64,000 nucleotides of DNA, from NCBI RefSeq assembly GCF_000979455.1, contig NZ_JJOY01000042.1:1-64000 (forward strand), given 5' to 3'. A model generated the notes under the pieces. That model ran no database searches and was not told the origin of the DNA. It saw only the letters and a program-made list of their open reading frames with translations. This DNA is from Methanosarcina sp. 2.H.T.1A.6. GTDB lineage: Archaea > Halobacteriota > Methanosarcinia > Methanosarcinales > Methanosarcinaceae. Of the stretch, positions 5,836 to 59,080 are shown one piece after another; position 1 is the stretch's first letter, and every line of letters begins with the position of its first letter. A program made the translations under genes and the position numbers.

Positions 5836-6047
5836 TTCAGAATAAAGCAAGTCCTGCCGAATTTTTACAACTTTATTGTTATTTTTCTGCCGGACTCCCC
5901 GGAAAATCCGACTCAACCTTTTCAACAACCCACCCCAGAGCAGTGCAAATTTAATATAATGATTCCCTTTATCCATCTAATATTTCGGACAAATCAAGAA
6001 TTTACAATTACCCTATATCCCCCAATCAATTTCACGAGGATTATAAA

Positions 6048-22675: not shown

Positions 22676-23797
22676 TCAGCCTTTTTTAAGGCAGTTAAGG
22701 ATGTCATCAGCTTCATACTTTGTTTTGATTATCCGTGTCCTGCCTCGCTTGCCCTTGCCTGTAAAGTCAGCGTCCACATAGTTGAGAGTCTGAAGCCTGT
22801 TGACCATGCCGTAAAAACGGGTGTAGCCGAGCTGTGTCAACTCGTGGAAAGATTTATAGAGTTCTCCAGCCTTAACATCATCTGTCCTTGCTATCAGTTC
22901 AAGCAGCTGTTTTTCAGGGTCTGAGAGGAGGCTTATGCCCCTGCACAGGTGGAGAAGTTTGGAAGCCTCGTAGGCTTTTTCCACATCTTCTGATAAGATC
23001 ATGCGGCTTCCCCTGCGCTCAGCGTTGAACCCTGAACGTCTTAGAAGATCGATTCCAACCCTCAGATCTCCTGTTTTTTCCACATATGAGACAACAAGCT
23101 CCAGTACTTCTTCAGAGATTACTTTCGGGTAAAAGCCGTACCTGACCCTATCCTTAAGGATGTCCAGAATCTCTGCCTTCCCATACCTTGGAGAGGATAT
23201 TTCTTCAGGCAGGAAAACAGAGTTAACCCTTGCATCCAGGCAATAAAGGTCAGATGCATCGTTTACGATCCCGATAACCCCTATCTTTGCTCCGGGATAC
23301 TGCTCGTGAGCCCTTAGCAGGGAATACATCACTTCGTTGGCGTGTCCCTCACAGCAGAGATAATTAAGGTCATCCAGCGCCACAATCAACACTTTTTCAG
23401 AAGAAATCAGGAAATTTACAACGTTTTCAAAGAGTTTCCGAAAAGCAATCCCGGAATTCGGAGGAGAGATCCCGAACAGTTGCCTGTAAATCCTGGAAAT
23501 TACGGCAAAACGTGTGGAATCAATCTGGCAGTTGACCTTTACAGCCACAACACCCGGAGCATGAGCCTCAACTTCTCTGAAAACCTTCATAACAGCACTG
23601 GTCTTCCCTGTTCCTGGAGGACCGACCAGCAAACAATTTAAAGGCCGCATGCCGCGCAGGGCCGGTCTGAGCGCAAACCTGAGCGCATTTAACTGTGAAT
23701 CCCTGTGGGGAAAATATTCTGGGAGATAATCCGGCTCAAGTACCGAGAGGTCCTTAAATAGGGTTTCGTCCCAGAGTAGTATATCGTTGCCTGTCAA
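22676..23797 (-). CDS. cdc6: Orc1/Cdc6-type replication initiator
   Basis: This AAA+ ATPase binds replication origins and loads MCM. The Walker A motif GPPGTGKTSAV is followed by a Walker B-like VLIVALDDLNYL, then sensor regions and a C-terminal winged helix (about residues 290-370, with ELTQLGYTRFYGMVNRLQTL). The chosen start is the TTG at 23797 (MTGNDILLWDETLFKD), with AAGGAG 9 nt upstream. It removes 63 residues without family character that an ATG at 23986 would add, and gives the usual archaeal N-terminus before LLWDETLF and the HRDSQL box. The Walker B has Asp-Asp where Asp-Glu is usual. The 640-bp AT-rich region upstream could include an origin, but no origin box is clearly visible. 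Confidence 0.9.
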   Translation of the reverse strand: MTGNDILLWDETLFKDLSVLEPDYLPEYFPHRDSQLNALRFALRPALRGMRPLNCLLVGPPGTGKTSAVMKVFREVEAHAPGVVAVKVNCQIDSTRFAVISRIYRQLFGISPPNSGIAFRKLFENVVNFLISSEKVLIVALDDLNYLCCEGHANEVMYSLLRAHEQYPGAKIGVIGIVNDASDLYCLDARVNSVFLPEEISSPRYGKAEILDILKDRVRYGFYPKVISEEVLELVVSYVEKTGDLRVGIDLLRRSGFNAERRGSRMILSEDVEKAYEASKLLHLCRGISLLSDPEKQLLELIARTDDVKAGELYKSFHELTQLGYTRFYGMVNRLQTLNYVDADFTGKGKRGRTRIIKTKYEADDILNCLKKG

Positions 23798-27222: not shown

Positions 27223-28854
27223 TCAGTCCCGTGGGACTTCCTCAACTTCGATGCCCCCTTCAAAAACTACTGGGGCTCCCACAGCCTGTTCTATAAGTAC
27301 TTTGGACTGGAGAGAGTATCCAAAAATCTTCTTAAAGAATTTTTTCTGTTTCTCAACTTCCCAGATTTCGAGCTGGCACTCCTGCTGGGCGTGCATTTCA
27401 AGCACAAGACTTTCGGTGGAAGCAATATAGAAACGGACATGGGATACAATACCGGTATGGGTACGGTCAAGCCCTTCGGCAATACGGAGAAGGGCACTGA
27501 GCGCCCTGATACTTTTTACAGCTTCTTTACTTAACCCTGCAAGGTTGGGATGCTTCTTTTTAGGGGTGTTTTTCCTGTGGAAATACGCAAGGTTTGCAAT
27601 GATTTCTATTTCTTCAGGCTGGAAGCCGGGGAGGCTGCTCTCTCTTATAAGGTGATAGGCATGTGCCTGATGGGTATCATATGAGAGAAATGTCCCTATA
27701 TCGTGCAGAGTCGCGCCATACTCGAGAAGCTCTCTCTCGCTCTCCTGAAACTCATAGACCCCAAGAGCCTGAATGCTGTCAAAGAGTTCAAGGGCAAGCC
27801 TGGTAACGATATGTGCATGTTCTTCGTCAAAGTTGCAGGCAAGGCCAAGCTGCATGATGCTGCGTTTTCTTACCGACATCTGCGTGACCATATAAGAGAA
27901 TTCGCTCTTTGAGATATAGTCCACTAGCAGCCCTTCCCTGAGCCCGCGCTTGCTGACCGTAATCTCTGAAAGTTCGAGTCCCTCCATAAGCGTCTCGATG
28001 ATTGCAGCGCCTGAAAGAATGATGTCTGCCCTCTGGGAGTTTATCCCCGGAAATTTGCGCCTCTCTTCAAGCGGCAGGGCGCACATTGCCCGGACAATTT
28101 TCTTCAGGTCTTCGTACTCCAGCTTCTCGAAACTTTCATGGGCTGTTTTATGAAGGTAAACAAAAGCGATTTTTGCAAGGTTTTCGATAGTCCCCGAGCT
28201 CCCAATCACACAGCCTACCCTGTACCTGGAAAGTTCTTTTGTTATATCCGCAGTCTTGCGCCGTATGTAGGCTTTGATCTGCTCATAACGCTCCTCGGAA
28301 ACCGGACCTGTTTCATCCGGAAGAAACATGTTTGTCAGACGGATTGACCCGAGATTAAGGGAGTGAAGGAAGTAACACTGACTCTGGTCCCCTACCGATA
28401 CTTCAGTGCTCCCACCCCCGATATCAATAAAAAGGGCTTTTGAATAACCAAGGCGGAGCCCGCTTGAGACCCCCAGATAGATCAGGCGGGCTTCTTCTAA
28501 CCCTGAAATCGTACAGACCTCAAGGTTTGCCTCTCTTTTAATCATTTCAAGAAACTGGACCCTATTGCTCGCATCCCGGGTTGCAGAGGTTGCCACAGCT
28601 ATGATCTCTTCTGCCCTGTAAGCCCTTGCAAGTTCCATGAACTTTTTACAGACAACGGTTGCCCTCTCCATTGCTTTTAGCTGCAGGATCCTGTCTATAA
28701 ACTCCTTTTCTCCAAGCCGCACCGTTTCCTTCTGCTTGGTCAGGGGCTGGTAAGACCCGTTGGAATTGATCCGGACCAGAAGAAGCCGGACCGAGTTCGT
28801 CCCTATATCAATAAACGCAACAACCCTGCCGTCGGAATTTTTCTCGGGTTCCAT
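27223..28854 (-). CDS. ppx: Exopolyphosphatase / pppGpp phosphohydrolase family (Ppx/GppA)
   Basis: The protein has the ASKHA fold signatures of Ppx: AFIDIGTNSVRLLLVRI at residues 13-29 (phosphate loop 1), FIDIGGGSTEVSVG near 140 (loop 2), and VIGSSGTIENLAKIA near 215. The C-terminal HD-type domain is intact (GATLHDIGTFLSY near 383, then FHRKNTPKKKHPNL). Ppx removes terminal phosphates from polyphosphate. The length of 543 is in the family range. The ATG at 28854 has AGGTGG 6-10 nt upstream. It is on the same strand as ppk, separated by about 410 bp that contain a hairpin-flanked element, and converges with the CYTH/CHAD gene. Confidence 0.93.
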   Translation of the reverse strand: MEPEKNSDGRVVAFIDIGTNSVRLLLVRINSNGSYQPLTKQKETVRLGEKEFIDRILQLKAMERATVVCKKFMELARAYRAEEIIAVATSATRDASNRVQFLEMIKREANLEVCTISGLEEARLIYLGVSSGLRLGYSKALFIDIGGGSTEVSVGDQSQCYFLHSLNLGSIRLTNMFLPDETGPVSEERYEQIKAYIRRKTADITKELSRYRVGCVIGSSGTIENLAKIAFVYLHKTAHESFEKLEYEDLKKIVRAMCALPLEERRKFPGINSQRADIILSGAAIIETLMEGLELSEITVSKRGLREGLLVDYISKSEFSYMVTQMSVRKRSIMQLGLACNFDEEHAHIVTRLALELFDSIQALGVYEFQESERELLEYGATLHDIGTFLSYDTHQAHAYHLIRESSLPGFQPEEIEIIANLAYFHRKNTPKKKHPNLAGLSKEAVKSIRALSALLRIAEGLDRTHTGIVSHVRFYIASTESLVLEMHAQQECQLEIWEVEKQKKFFKKIFGYSLQSKVLIEQAVGAPVVFEGGIEVEEVPRD

Positions 28855-37551: not shown

Positions 37552-37593
37552 GTGAACTGCCCCCAGGCTAAAGACCGGGAGGTTTTACGCTTC
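37552..37593 (+). repeat. Dispersed GC-rich hairpin element, copy C
   Basis: Reads GTGAACTG, CCCCCAGG, CTAAAGA, CCGGGAGG, TTTTACGCTTC, matching copies A (13829) and B (12052). The right arm has two changes that weaken the stem. It lies 156 nt upstream of the ino1 start. Confidence 0.7.
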
Positions 37594-37748
37594 TTCCTAT
37601 AAATTTCATGGACCTTGAATCCGTAAATCCTTGGATCCATAAATCCCTGGATCCATAAATTATGAAAGTTTGGAAGTTTTGAGAACCTGTCGTTTCATGC
37701 AAGTTGTGGTTTATGAGAGTCAGGGTATTCATCGGAGAGTAAGCGCTT

Positions 37749-38849
37749 ATGACAAAAATAAAAATAGCAATTGCAGGAATCGGGAACTGTGCAAGCTCTT
37801 TGATACAGGGCATCGAGTACTATAAAACCGAAGATAGGGATCCCATAGGACTTATGCACAGGGACATTGGAGGGTATAGGCCCGGCGATATCAAAGTTGT
37901 TGCTGCCTTCGATATTGATGCCAGGAAGGTAGGAAAAGACGTTTCCGAGGCCATTTTTGCCCCCCCGAACTGCACAGCGGTTTTTTGCCCAGACATTCCT
38001 TCCACAGGTGTGAAGGTTAAGATGGGCAGAGTTCTTGATGGGGTCTCTGACCACATGAAGAATTATAGGGAAAATTACACATTTGTTGTCAGCAGAGAGC
38101 CTGAAGCCACAAAAGCAGACATCGTAAAAGAACTGAAGGATTCAGGAGCCGAAATGCTTCTTAATTACCTTCCTGTCGGTTCTGAAGAAGCTGTCCGTTT
38201 CTATGCCGAATGCGCTCTTGAAGCCGGAGTGGCTTTAATCAACAACATGCCTGTTTTCATTGCAAGCAATCCTGAGTGGGCAAAACGGTTTGAAGAAAAG
38301 AATATTCCTGTTATCGGAGACGATATCAAAGCCCAGCTTGGAGCAACAATTACCCACAGAGTCCTTGCAGACCTGTTTGAAAAACGCGGTGTAAAGCTCG
38401 AAAGGACATATCAGCTGAACACTGGCGGAAACACCGATTTCCTCAATATGCTCAACAGGGACAGGCTTGCTTCCAAGCGTGAATCCAAGACCGAAGCCGT
38501 CCAGTCCGTGCTCTTTCATAGGCTTGAGGATGAAAATATCCATATCGGACCGAGCGACTACGTTGCCTGGCAGAAAGACAACAAGGTATGCTTCCTTCGA
38601 ATGGAAGGTAAACTTTTTGGGGACGTGCCCATGAACATTGAACTCCGGCTTTCAGTGGAAGACTCTCCAAACTCCGGAGGTGTGGTAATTGATGCCATTC
38701 GCTGCTGTAAGCTGGCTCTTGACCGCGGGATAGGAGGAGTGCTGTACTCCCCGGCTTCCTACTTCATGAAACATCCGGCTATACAGTATCCTGATGATGA
38801 GGCATACCGCAGGACTGAAGAGTTCATAGCCGGAACACGAGAACGTTAA
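37749..38849 (+). CDS. ino1: Inositol-1-phosphate synthase (archaeal type)
   Basis: This NAD-dependent enzyme cyclises glucose 6-phosphate to inositol 1-phosphate, the precursor of the archaeal phosphoinositol lipid headgroup. The N-terminal Rossmann motif is [19 protein letters not shown] (about residues 7-25), then [19 protein letters not shown]. The catalytic part includes [11 protein letters not shown] (about 219-229), [10 protein letters not shown] with active-site lysines, and [13 protein letters not shown]. The length of 366 is standard for archaeal and actinobacterial members. The ATG at 37749 has only a weak ribosome site (GAGTAAG). No other lipid genes are adjacent. Confidence 0.93.
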
Positions 38850-39028: not shown

Positions 39029-39697
39029 TTAACGGATTCCTTCAGCCGTAATTTTAAACTCCGCATTTGTGCCTTCGGGACGGGAGCGGTGTTTGAAGAG
39101 AGTGGCGCGCCTTGTCCCTTCACCTGTTTTTTCCAGCTGGATGATCGTCTTTGAGATATGTTCCAGGGAACTGCCCCCCAATGGGCGCACCCCTCCTGCA
39201 ATAATATTTGAGTATACCTGATTTGTTATAACTGCAACAAAACCGTGTTTGCGAGCCAGAGCATGCAGAAACCCTATCTGGTTGGCAAGTTCTCTGCGGC
39301 TTTTTATACCGGTCTCCTCATCTTCGAGTTCAAACCTGTAGTATGAAGTTGCAGAATCCAGAATCACAAGCCCGATATTTTCACCTGCTATCCTCTCCAC
39401 CTCTCTTACGGACGCATACTGCTCTTCAAAACTCAGGGGTTCGTAGATAATTATGCTCCTGGCTATTTCCTTTGCATTTTCCCCTGCAATCTGCTTGAAA
39501 CGAACAGGAGAAAGCCCTTCCGTATCTATGAAAATGACTTTCTGTCCCTGCTTTACACATTCCACTGCAAGCTGGATACAGATATTTGTTTTTCCGGTTC
39601 CTGCGGCTCCGAAAACCTGAGTTACGATCCCTCTCTCGAAACCTCCTCCCAGGAGGTCATCAAGGGGTTTACAACCGGAAGATAATAGTTTCTCTAT
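39029..39697 (-). CDS. radB: RadB recombinase paralogue; apparent ATA start codon
   Basis: RadB is a RecA-fold Rad51 paralogue of euryarchaea that aids RadA. The frame reads IEKLLSSGCKPLDDLLGGG, then Walker A GAAGTGKTN (about residues 31-39), then VIFIDTEGLSPVRF, Walker B LVILDSATSYYRF (about 108), and a C-terminal RPEGTNAEFKITAEGIR. From the stop at 39797-39799 down to a GTG at 39565, which lies after Walker A, there is no ATG, GTG or TTG in frame. The only well-placed codon is ATA at 39697, with GAGGTG 7 nt upstream and the usual RadB N-terminus (xEKLLSSGC). The length becomes 223, normal for RadB. A mutated start or a sequence error are the alternatives. Confidence 0.85.
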   Translation of the reverse strand: MEKLLSSGCKPLDDLLGGGFERGIVTQVFGAAGTGKTNICIQLAVECVKQGQKVIFIDTEGLSPVRFKQIAGENAKEIARSIIIYEPLSFEEQYASVREVERIAGENIGLVILDSATSYYRFELEDEETGIKSRRELANQIGFLHALARKHGFVAVITNQVYSNIIAGGVRPLGGSSLEHISKTIIQLEKTGEGTRRATLFKHRSRPEGTNAEFKITAEGIR

Positions 39698-40204
39698 GGC
39701 GTGACACCTCTCTTTGCACTTGACAGAAGTATGAAAGACCCATGATATAATGCTTTTTTCATAATTTTCAACCCGATTGGAGAAGAATAAAGATCTTCAG
39801 AGAGAAATAAAAGTATTTAAGTGGACATAGAAGAAATGCTCAGGTTTGAATTCTCAGACCTGAGGAGACGGAGAAAAAAAATTTTCAGTAATATCTTGAA
39901 ACTGAAAATGTCCTTTACTAATATATTGTAATGTTTTCAAGGAATAAAGCCATATAGATGATGTCCATACCTATATCCATTAAAGTATCTCCCATACAAA
40001 ATAAAGTCTTCTGTACTTGAAAATGATCCCACAAATTAGGTATTTTTAAAAAAACAGAAGCCCATAAGATTGTCACCAGATCTGATAACAAACAACGGTC
40101 TTTGTATACAAAGTAAGAGGGTAATTGTATTCAAAGATGAGTTGAAAAACCATTATAAGTAAGATCTGGCATTTAGAATAATTACCTGAAAATTAAGATA
40201 ACCT

Positions 40205-40253: not shown

Positions 40254-40497
40254 CTGCATGCCCTGTTCAGATATTGCTGACTAGTCTGGGAGAGTTATTA
40301 TAGAATAAACCGGGTTGGCTAAGGAATAGTACCCATGCGGGGTTTTGTTTTATTGCTTTGATGCGCTCTGCGCCGGCATACTCACGCTCCGCACACTGTA
40401 AATAAAAGCAATATGTATTGATGAAAAACGAAACATGTAAAAGGCATGTAAAAAACATGTTAAAAAGACTGTACCATAAATCAGAGGGGCGCAAATT

Positions 40498-40749
40498 ATG
40501 GCAAAAATAATAGTTTACACAACGGAACGTTGTCCGAAATGCAATAAATTGAAAAAATTCCTGGAAGCAAATTCAGTACCCTTCGAAGTAGCAGATATGT
40601 CCACCCCGGAAGCTCTGACCGAACTGCGTTTCAACGGGGTCTTCACAGTGACAGCGCCTGTATTACAGATCAATAGTGAATTCCTCACGTATACCGAAAT
40701 ATTCCGCGGGGAAGAAGTGAATCCGGAAAAACTCCGGGGAATTCTGTGA
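40498..40749 (+). CDS. nrdH: Glutaredoxin-like protein (NrdH type)
   Basis: An 83-residue thioredoxin-fold protein. The redox motif CPKC is at residues 12-15 after the first strand (KIIVYTTER), the cis-Pro segment is TAPVLQINSEFL (about 52-63), and the last helix ends EKLRGIL. Such small redoxins reduce ribonucleotide reductases, and its position 75 nt before nrdD supports that role here. The ATG at 40498 follows GAGGGGC. It is the first gene of a three-gene nrd operon. The alternative is a general methanogen redoxin that merely shares the operon. Confidence 0.85.
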   Translation: MAKIIVYTTERCPKCNKLKKFLEANSVPFEVADMSTPEALTELRFNGVFTVTAPVLQINSEFLTYTEIFRGEEVNPEKLRGIL

Positions 40750-58036: not shown

Positions 58037-59080
58037 TTATAGGAGCTGCTTCTTTTCTGCATTAAATGCGTTGATGCCTTTTGCGGTATTCTCAAGCAGC
58101 CTGAAAGCAAGTTCCTGGTCAGGCCAGTATGCCAGCCCACAGTCCGGACTTGCGTATTTTATGCGGCCCCCGAGAATAGAAGAGGCTTTCTCAAGCCGTT
58201 TTTTAATGACCTCAGGCGTTTCCATGTCAGTTACAATCTTTTGCATGTACTCTTTTTCCTTCCAGGCATTGACTCCATAGGTCTCGTTAACCATACCCAT
58301 AAGGCTGGAAATATCAGTCCTCGAGACCCCGAGCCTTATGTAAGTATTCGAATCCTCCAGGACTTTTTTGTCCATGAGATCTATGTAAGAGGGAGTTGCA
58401 GCATACTCAAACCCGATAACATTGATAGGGGTCTCGCAAACAAGTTTATACTTTAATGGAGAGTGCAGATGGATCTCCATATCTGCTCCCTGTTTTCGCG
58501 CGTAGGTAGAAGCCAGAGTAAGGGCAGAGATGATATCAGAGTCAGAAAACTGGATTCTATCGTTCATTCCAAGACTTGGTTCGTCCAGAGAAATAACCCT
58601 GATTTTGAAATTTTTCGCAGCTTTAAAAGCCTGCTTTATGAAATTCTCGATATTCAGAGCCATGATATGATATGCATCTGAAAAAGCAGTTGCTCCGAAA
58701 GCCTGAAGGTACAGGTCCGTAGGACCGGCAACGCAAACTCTAACCCCCAGAGTTTCCCCTGTCTCTTCCCTGTACTGCTTTGCAACCTCGTCAATTATCT
58801 CCAGCTCAAGGATTTTTGCGTGCTCCTCTTTTACCACATAAGGCTCATAACAGTTCTTTTCATCCTTGATTATGTCCAGAAACTGCCCGATCATATCCCG
58901 AAACTGCGGATAAGTAGGAACGTGCACTCCAACATCGATTTTTCTCTGGAAAGTCTCCCTTACCAGAGAAAAGAGTTTTTCGTCCTCGTCCCGGTTTTCA
59001 GCTGCAACTTTCACCCATTCCCTCGTGAGACCCTCAGGGGTGGGAAGGCTGCCTCCGTCGATAAAAGTGATGTCCTGCAT
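58037..59080 (-). CDS. MetE-core family methyltransferase, paralogue 2
   Basis: Same family as the gene at 56866, and clearly a diverged duplicate: MQDITFIDGGSLPTPEGLTREWVK, VAGPTDLYLQAFG, ISLDEPSLGMNDRI, MEIHLHSPLKY, NVIGFEYAATPSY and SPDCGLAYWPDQELAF. The zinc-site pair again reads HLH. The start ATG 59080 matches the paralogue. An extension to 59149 would add 23 residues of hydrophobic, unrelated sequence. There is no ribosome site, but TTATAATAC about 35 nt upstream suggests a short or absent leader. Different corrinoid partners or methyl donors for the two copies are an inference. Confidence 0.85.
   Translation of the reverse strand: MQDITFIDGGSLPTPEGLTREWVKVAAENRDEDEKLFSLVRETFQRKIDVGVHVPTYPQFRDMIGQFLDIIKDEKNCYEPYVVKEEHAKILELEIIDEVAKQYREETGETLGVRVCVAGPTDLYLQAFGATAFSDAYHIMALNIENFIKQAFKAAKNFKIRVISLDEPSLGMNDRIQFSDSDIISALTLASTYARKQGADMEIHLHSPLKYKLVCETPINVIGFEYAATPSYIDLMDKKVLEDSNTYIRLGVSRTDISSLMGMVNETYGVNAWKEKEYMQKIVTDMETPEVIKKRLEKASSILGGRIKYASPDCGLAYWPDQELAFRLLENTAKGINAFNAEKKQLL

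Follow-up and report, generated by a model that had tools for sequence, protein, structure and literature searches.

The archaeal radB gene appears to start with AUA or AUC throughout the Methanosarcinaceae

The gene for RadB, an archaeal recombination mediator, appears to be translated from an AUA codon, or in one genus an AUC codon, throughout the family Methanosarcinaceae. We consider it likely that selection keeps this start from becoming AUG, and that RadB is thereby held at a low level that depends on the stringency of the initiation factor aIF1. AUA is an inefficient signal and is normally rejected as a start. Comparison between genomes supplies the site of initiation and its Shine-Dalgarno sequence, and shows both that no other start is shared and that the codon has been retained by selection. 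What we infer beyond this is the identity of the first residue as methionine, the low output, the dependence on aIF1 and the reason for the arrangement, namely that an excess of the mediator would over-load RadA.

The window, which is the whole stretch of 64,000 nucleotides of Methanosarcina sp. 2.H.T.1A.6 DNA that was analyzed, carries radB on its minus strand. The RadB frame extends from an in-frame TGA at 39797-39799 to its stop codon at 39029 and, as a sequence-only reading of this DNA had claimed, contains no ATG, GTG or TTG before a GTG at 39563-39565. This first standard codon is codon 45 when counted from the ATA, and the 178-amino-acid open reading frame that it would give has no Walker A motif (GAAGTGKT, 39587-39610). 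As the GTG lies beyond the Walker A motif, initiation there would not give a functional RadB. The same reading had placed the start at an ATA (39695-39697) found 7 nt behind a GAGGTG (39705-39710, minus strand), and the sequence confirms both the codon and the gap. The GTG inside this motif is out of frame with radB. Read from the ATA, the coding sequence (39029-39697, minus strand) specifies 222 amino acids plus a stop, and the product scores 253.9 bits against the TIGR02237 RadB model, above the curated cut-off of 172.4. The score against the second NCBIfam RadB model, NF006861, is 234.9 bits, which is under that model's own cut-off of 278. The solved RadB chain 2cvf (E 2.1e-36) aligns from residue 4 of the query, so the ATA yields the usual N-terminus of the RadB family, just as had been proposed, and both the N-terminal LLxSGCxxLDxLLGGG segment and the Walker A motif are present in the protein.

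The Shine-Dalgarno sequence of radB is complementary to the CACCTC near the 3' end of the 16S rRNA, which in the window's own genome reads GGATCACCTCCTAAG. The RNA around the radB start shows no unusual fold (z 0.26), and no known RNA family is found between 39500 and 40700 at the gathering threshold. A 70-codon open frame (39921-40130, minus strand), situated in the gap that separates radB from the divergent glutaredoxin-like gene, shows 66-76% identity in three sister genomes and may represent a small gene or conserved DNA that is non-coding.

To define the start across the family, 111 Methanosarcinaceae genomes were searched; a radB match was found in 108, with 3 lacking one, and the start region of all 108 was examined. 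The site was defined by position, as whichever in-frame codon follows the Shine-Dalgarno sequence at a distance of 5-7 nt, and the family counts rest on that rule. By this rule the codon is ATA in 102 of the 108 loci and ATC in the other six, across 14 genera, and neither ATG, GTG nor TTG is found at the site in any of the 108. A Shine-Dalgarno-like motif precedes the start by 5-7 nt in every one of these loci, as GAGGTG in 95, as GGGGTG in nine and as four other sequences once each. The sister genomes of the window agree with it, since ATA preceded by GAGGTG is found in 30/30 Methanosarcina genomes, the window's own included. Such a recurrence, in the genus as ATA and in the whole family as ATA or ATC, is far beyond chance. 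All six ATC loci are confined to a single genus, g6 (loci L104-L109). Members of this genus have small genomes of 1.3-1.8 Mb, and no other genus of the family departs from ATA at this position. Among the 91 loci that were analyzed first, the only near-cognate in-frame codon common to all between the Shine-Dalgarno sequence and codon 11 is the ATA/ATC, although in this set the anchor was whichever in-frame ATA or ATC came last within an 8-codon stretch, which favors these codons, and a slightly wider interval leads to the choice of a later ATA in three loci. Overall, radB displays three of the features of genes with conserved non-canonical starts: no usable ATG, GTG or TTG, conservation across a lineage and a strong Shine-Dalgarno sequence.

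The start codon is more varied in other families of the same order. The second family, f5, which may be the Methanoperedenaceae, is represented by 31 loci, with ATA at the radB site in 18, ATT in seven, ATC in one and ATG in five. Six of the 26 loci without ATG are devoid of any standard start. A further 18 have an in-frame GTG (16) or ATG (2) located 9 nt upstream and overlapping the Shine-Dalgarno-like motif, so that either codon is a candidate start in those 18, and the remaining two have other, farther standard codons. Among the 14 loci of family f4, nine carry ATG at the site and five carry ATC, the latter all from genus g24, where a GTG and a Shine-Dalgarno-like sequence lie 9 nt upstream; these five loci were left out of the non-canonical count. 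Families f2 and f3 are mixed or give no clear reading at the site. One f3 locus, L130 of genome G117, lacks any in-frame ATG, GTG or TTG from the upstream stop as far as the conserved N-terminal segment; most of its f3 relatives have an ATG nearby, and L130 may carry another unusual start or an assembly fault.

Among genomes drawn from the phylum, radB was found in 136 of 148. All 68 loci examined outside the order have an ATG, GTG or TTG 27-48 nt before position 1 of TIGR02237, a count that includes as standard four ambiguous outgroup loci of family f17 in which a GTG and then an ATC follow a Shine-Dalgarno-like GGGGTG. In these four (L167, L169, L170 and L175) radB begins with GGGGTG-n-ATC or something similar, so that both an in-frame GTG and an ATC are candidate starts. 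With standard starts in all 68 outside loci and AUH starts inside the order, the non-canonical start of radB would most simply be a trait that was derived within this order and became fixed in the Methanosarcinaceae.

The codon itself appears to be under constraint. A tree was constructed from the 89 complete radB genes of the 91-locus set, with the two partial genes dropped and the 17 later loci absent. On this tree the third base of the start codon requires a single parsimony step, in comparison with a median of 18 steps (range 3-31) for the third base at 75 other codons for conserved residues. The third bases of the four conserved internal isoleucine codons of radB require 14-24 steps, and the single step at the start thus indicates that conservation acts on the ATA codon itself and goes beyond its coding for isoleucine. 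Once genus g6 is removed, the start is alone among 65 invariant-residue columns in having an invariant third base, a tally that excepts one gap column containing six sequences. Taken together, the comparison shows a non-AUG start that appears to have been retained by selection.

It has to be considered that the AUA start is real and has no regulatory meaning, being a frozen accident whose cost is offset by the strong Shine-Dalgarno sequence and which is kept by drift. The motif found in all 108 loci could indeed provide such compensation. One A-to-G transition is nevertheless enough to produce AUG, yet AUG is never seen at the family site, while third bases elsewhere in the gene change with the median of 18 steps given above. 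The only other codon within the family, the ATC of g6, is likewise a near-cognate codon other than AUG. Moreover, the five f5 and nine f4 loci with ATG at the site imply that AUG is tolerated in relatives and can be reached. We consequently regard a frozen accident as unlikely, though it is the most serious of the alternatives.

A second alternative holds that the AUA is an internal isoleucine codon and that RadB starts at an upstream TTG, ATG or GTG, giving the protein a short N-terminal extension. A standard in-frame codon is present upstream in 51 of the 108 family loci, for example as a TTG 45 nt before the ATA in many Methanosarcina or as a GTG within GAGGTG, 9 nt before the ATA, in several other genera, and each of these 51 genomes, taken alone, could have a different start. 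The candidate codons, however, differ in place between genomes, and 57 of the 108 loci, with the window among them, have no standard in-frame codon at all between the upstream stop and the ATA/ATC. An in-frame stop is even found 3-6 nt before the ATA/ATC in 26 of the 108, for instance in GAGGTG TAA AAG ATA. An internal isoleucine codon would also be expected to drift at its third base, with 14-24 steps rather than the one observed. An upstream start for the family is, on these grounds, very improbable. The GTG inside the Shine-Dalgarno sequence was considered separately as a general start and was rejected, both on account of the 26 loci with the intervening stop and because the GTG of the window is out of frame.

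Less probable again is a shorter RadB made from a downstream standard codon, such as a GTG near codon 25. Some genomes do possess a standard codon at about this position, ahead of the Walker A motif. Against this, 20 of the 108 loci contain no standard codon whatsoever from the upstream stop as far as Walker A, and the first one in the window, at codon 45, comes after it. In addition, codons 2-24 are under constraint at the level of the protein: they evolve as coding sequence, with 137 steps at the first codon position, 58 at the second and 347 at the third, and they match the N-terminus of RadB proteins that have ordinary starts.

As causes of the ATA, the sequence-only reading had offered a point mutation, an assembly error and real AUA initiation. 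An artefact of sequencing or assembly, or a point mutation, in the window genome is excluded for practical purposes by the independent genomes of the genus and family, in which ATA recurs in 30/30 Methanosarcina and 102/108 Methanosarcinaceae. The last of the three causes is the one that the comparison favors, and real AUA initiation at radB appears strongly supported.

That reading had further described radB as the second gene in the window with a non-standard start, a point that the survey of the window does not confirm. A total of 39 open frames, including radB, could be matched in four or all five of the sister regions compared, although some of them, such as 37571-37819 and 40270-40572, are possibly not genes. 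A standard codon common to all compared sequences is present in 29 of the 39. Of the nine other frames, seven were viewed as alignments and those at 37571 and 40270 were left out. In the frames at 5955, 24391, 34295 and 45817 most sequences show an evident ATG or TTG, and in the frame at 58040 all four sequences that could be aligned have ATG; the N-termini of the frames at 22679 and 55098 are unsuited to judgement in the alignments. Leaving 22679, 55098, 37571 and 40270 unjudged, radB alone combines a conserved N-terminus with a clear lack of a shared standard start, and the survey reveals no other clear case. The frame at 27226-28854 (minus strand) starts with ATG in the window, and its counterpart in sister genome G006 has a threonine aligned to the start methionine and a GTG two codons upstream, so that the start codon appears to have moved.

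Conserved starts other than AUG, GUG and UUG are known across lineages for a few bacterial genes, and radB would represent an archaeal case of the same kind. The gene infC starts with AUU in Escherichia coli, AUC in Streptomyces and AUA in Staphylococcus aureus (PMC5472188, PMC13009471), and so resembles radB in its near-cognate start and, in S. aureus, in its extended Shine-Dalgarno sequence. The two genes differ in that infC encodes a fidelity factor and is autoregulated, whereas radB encodes a recombination mediator. Archaea possess aIF1 instead of IF3, and the first standard start of the aIF1 gene is ATG in 29/29 Methanosarcina loci, so that no feedback loop like that of infC is visible. 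Autoregulation of the infC type was accordingly rejected for radB, given that RadB is not an initiation factor and that aIF1 itself has an ordinary start.

Another likeness is found in sigR of Streptomyces, a stress-response gene that, like radB, has a poor start across a whole lineage together with a strong ribosome binding site and does not encode an initiation factor. The published account describes a GTC start in 32 of 34 species and GTT in two, with the strong ribosome binding site AGGAGGTG, and places the infC AUU/AUC and sigR GTC codons under the action of IF3 (PMC5472188). Unlike radB, sigR is bacterial, uses GTC and not AUA, and has been demonstrated by experiment, whereas the start of radB is so far supported by comparison. 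The Staphylococcus genes ccpN (AUA) and cvfC1 (AUU) also combine a conserved start with an extended Shine-Dalgarno sequence, which is reported for the AUA starts of infC and ccpN alike (PMC13009471); these are bacterial genes with other functions. The E. coli gene pcnB, with AUU, has a start codon that limits the level of the protein, to judge from a title cited in PMC13009471, and can be likened to radB in this regard, although it too is bacterial and a different kind of gene. In Staphylococcus reporters, AUA and AUU give about 10% of the output of AUG, and up to 30% in one case (PMC13009471). The expectation that an AUA start would lower the translation of radB is thus supported by analogy. 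Term searches found neither AUA nor ATA in the main text of a ribosome-profiling paper on Methanosarcina mazei (PMC11456600), nor AUA in the text of PMC5622118, and among the matches listed from the openly licensed literature no archaeal start other than AUG, GUG or UUG conserved across a lineage was seen.

A mechanism can be envisaged along the following lines. The strong Shine-Dalgarno sequence, mostly GAGGUG and 5-7 nt upstream, would position the 30S subunit on radB, and the initiator Met-tRNA, with its CAU anticodon, would take the AUA, mispaired at its third base, at low efficiency. Acceptance of AUA by this tRNA means that RadB presumably begins with methionine. Most attempts at initiation on AUA would then be rejected by aIF1, a factor that in Sulfolobus is reported to promote selectivity against non-canonical start codons (PMC6237735). 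The outcome would be a low level of RadB that depends on start-codon stringency. RadB has been proposed to be a mediator that aids the polymerization of RadA on DNA, and propagation of a Haloferax strain carrying a doubly activated RadA is reported to have failed (PMC5480776). The latter observation makes a low dose of the mediator plausible, as too much of a RadA loader might over-load RadA. Most probably, the AUA is kept in order to hold RadB scarce.

The fixed AUA/AUC suggests that the dose of RadB matters. On a practical level, a gene finder restricted to ATG, GTG and TTG cannot place the start of radB for the 57 genomes without such a codon upstream. The AUA and AUC starts in 108 genomes, together with AUA, AUU and AUC in a related family, offer a natural test of how archaeal ribosomes equipped with aIF1 judge start codons, and the ATC of genus g6 provides a natural variant with which the choice of codon can be tested. 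It is also possible, although we hold this to be doubtful and put it forward tentatively, that the AUH start of radB acts as an archaeal translational valve, through which a loss of stringency, whether from low or occupied aIF1 or from stress, would raise RadB and with it the capacity for recombination. If this were true, the valve would couple DNA repair to the fidelity of initiation across a whole family of methane-cycling archaea and perhaps across most of their order.
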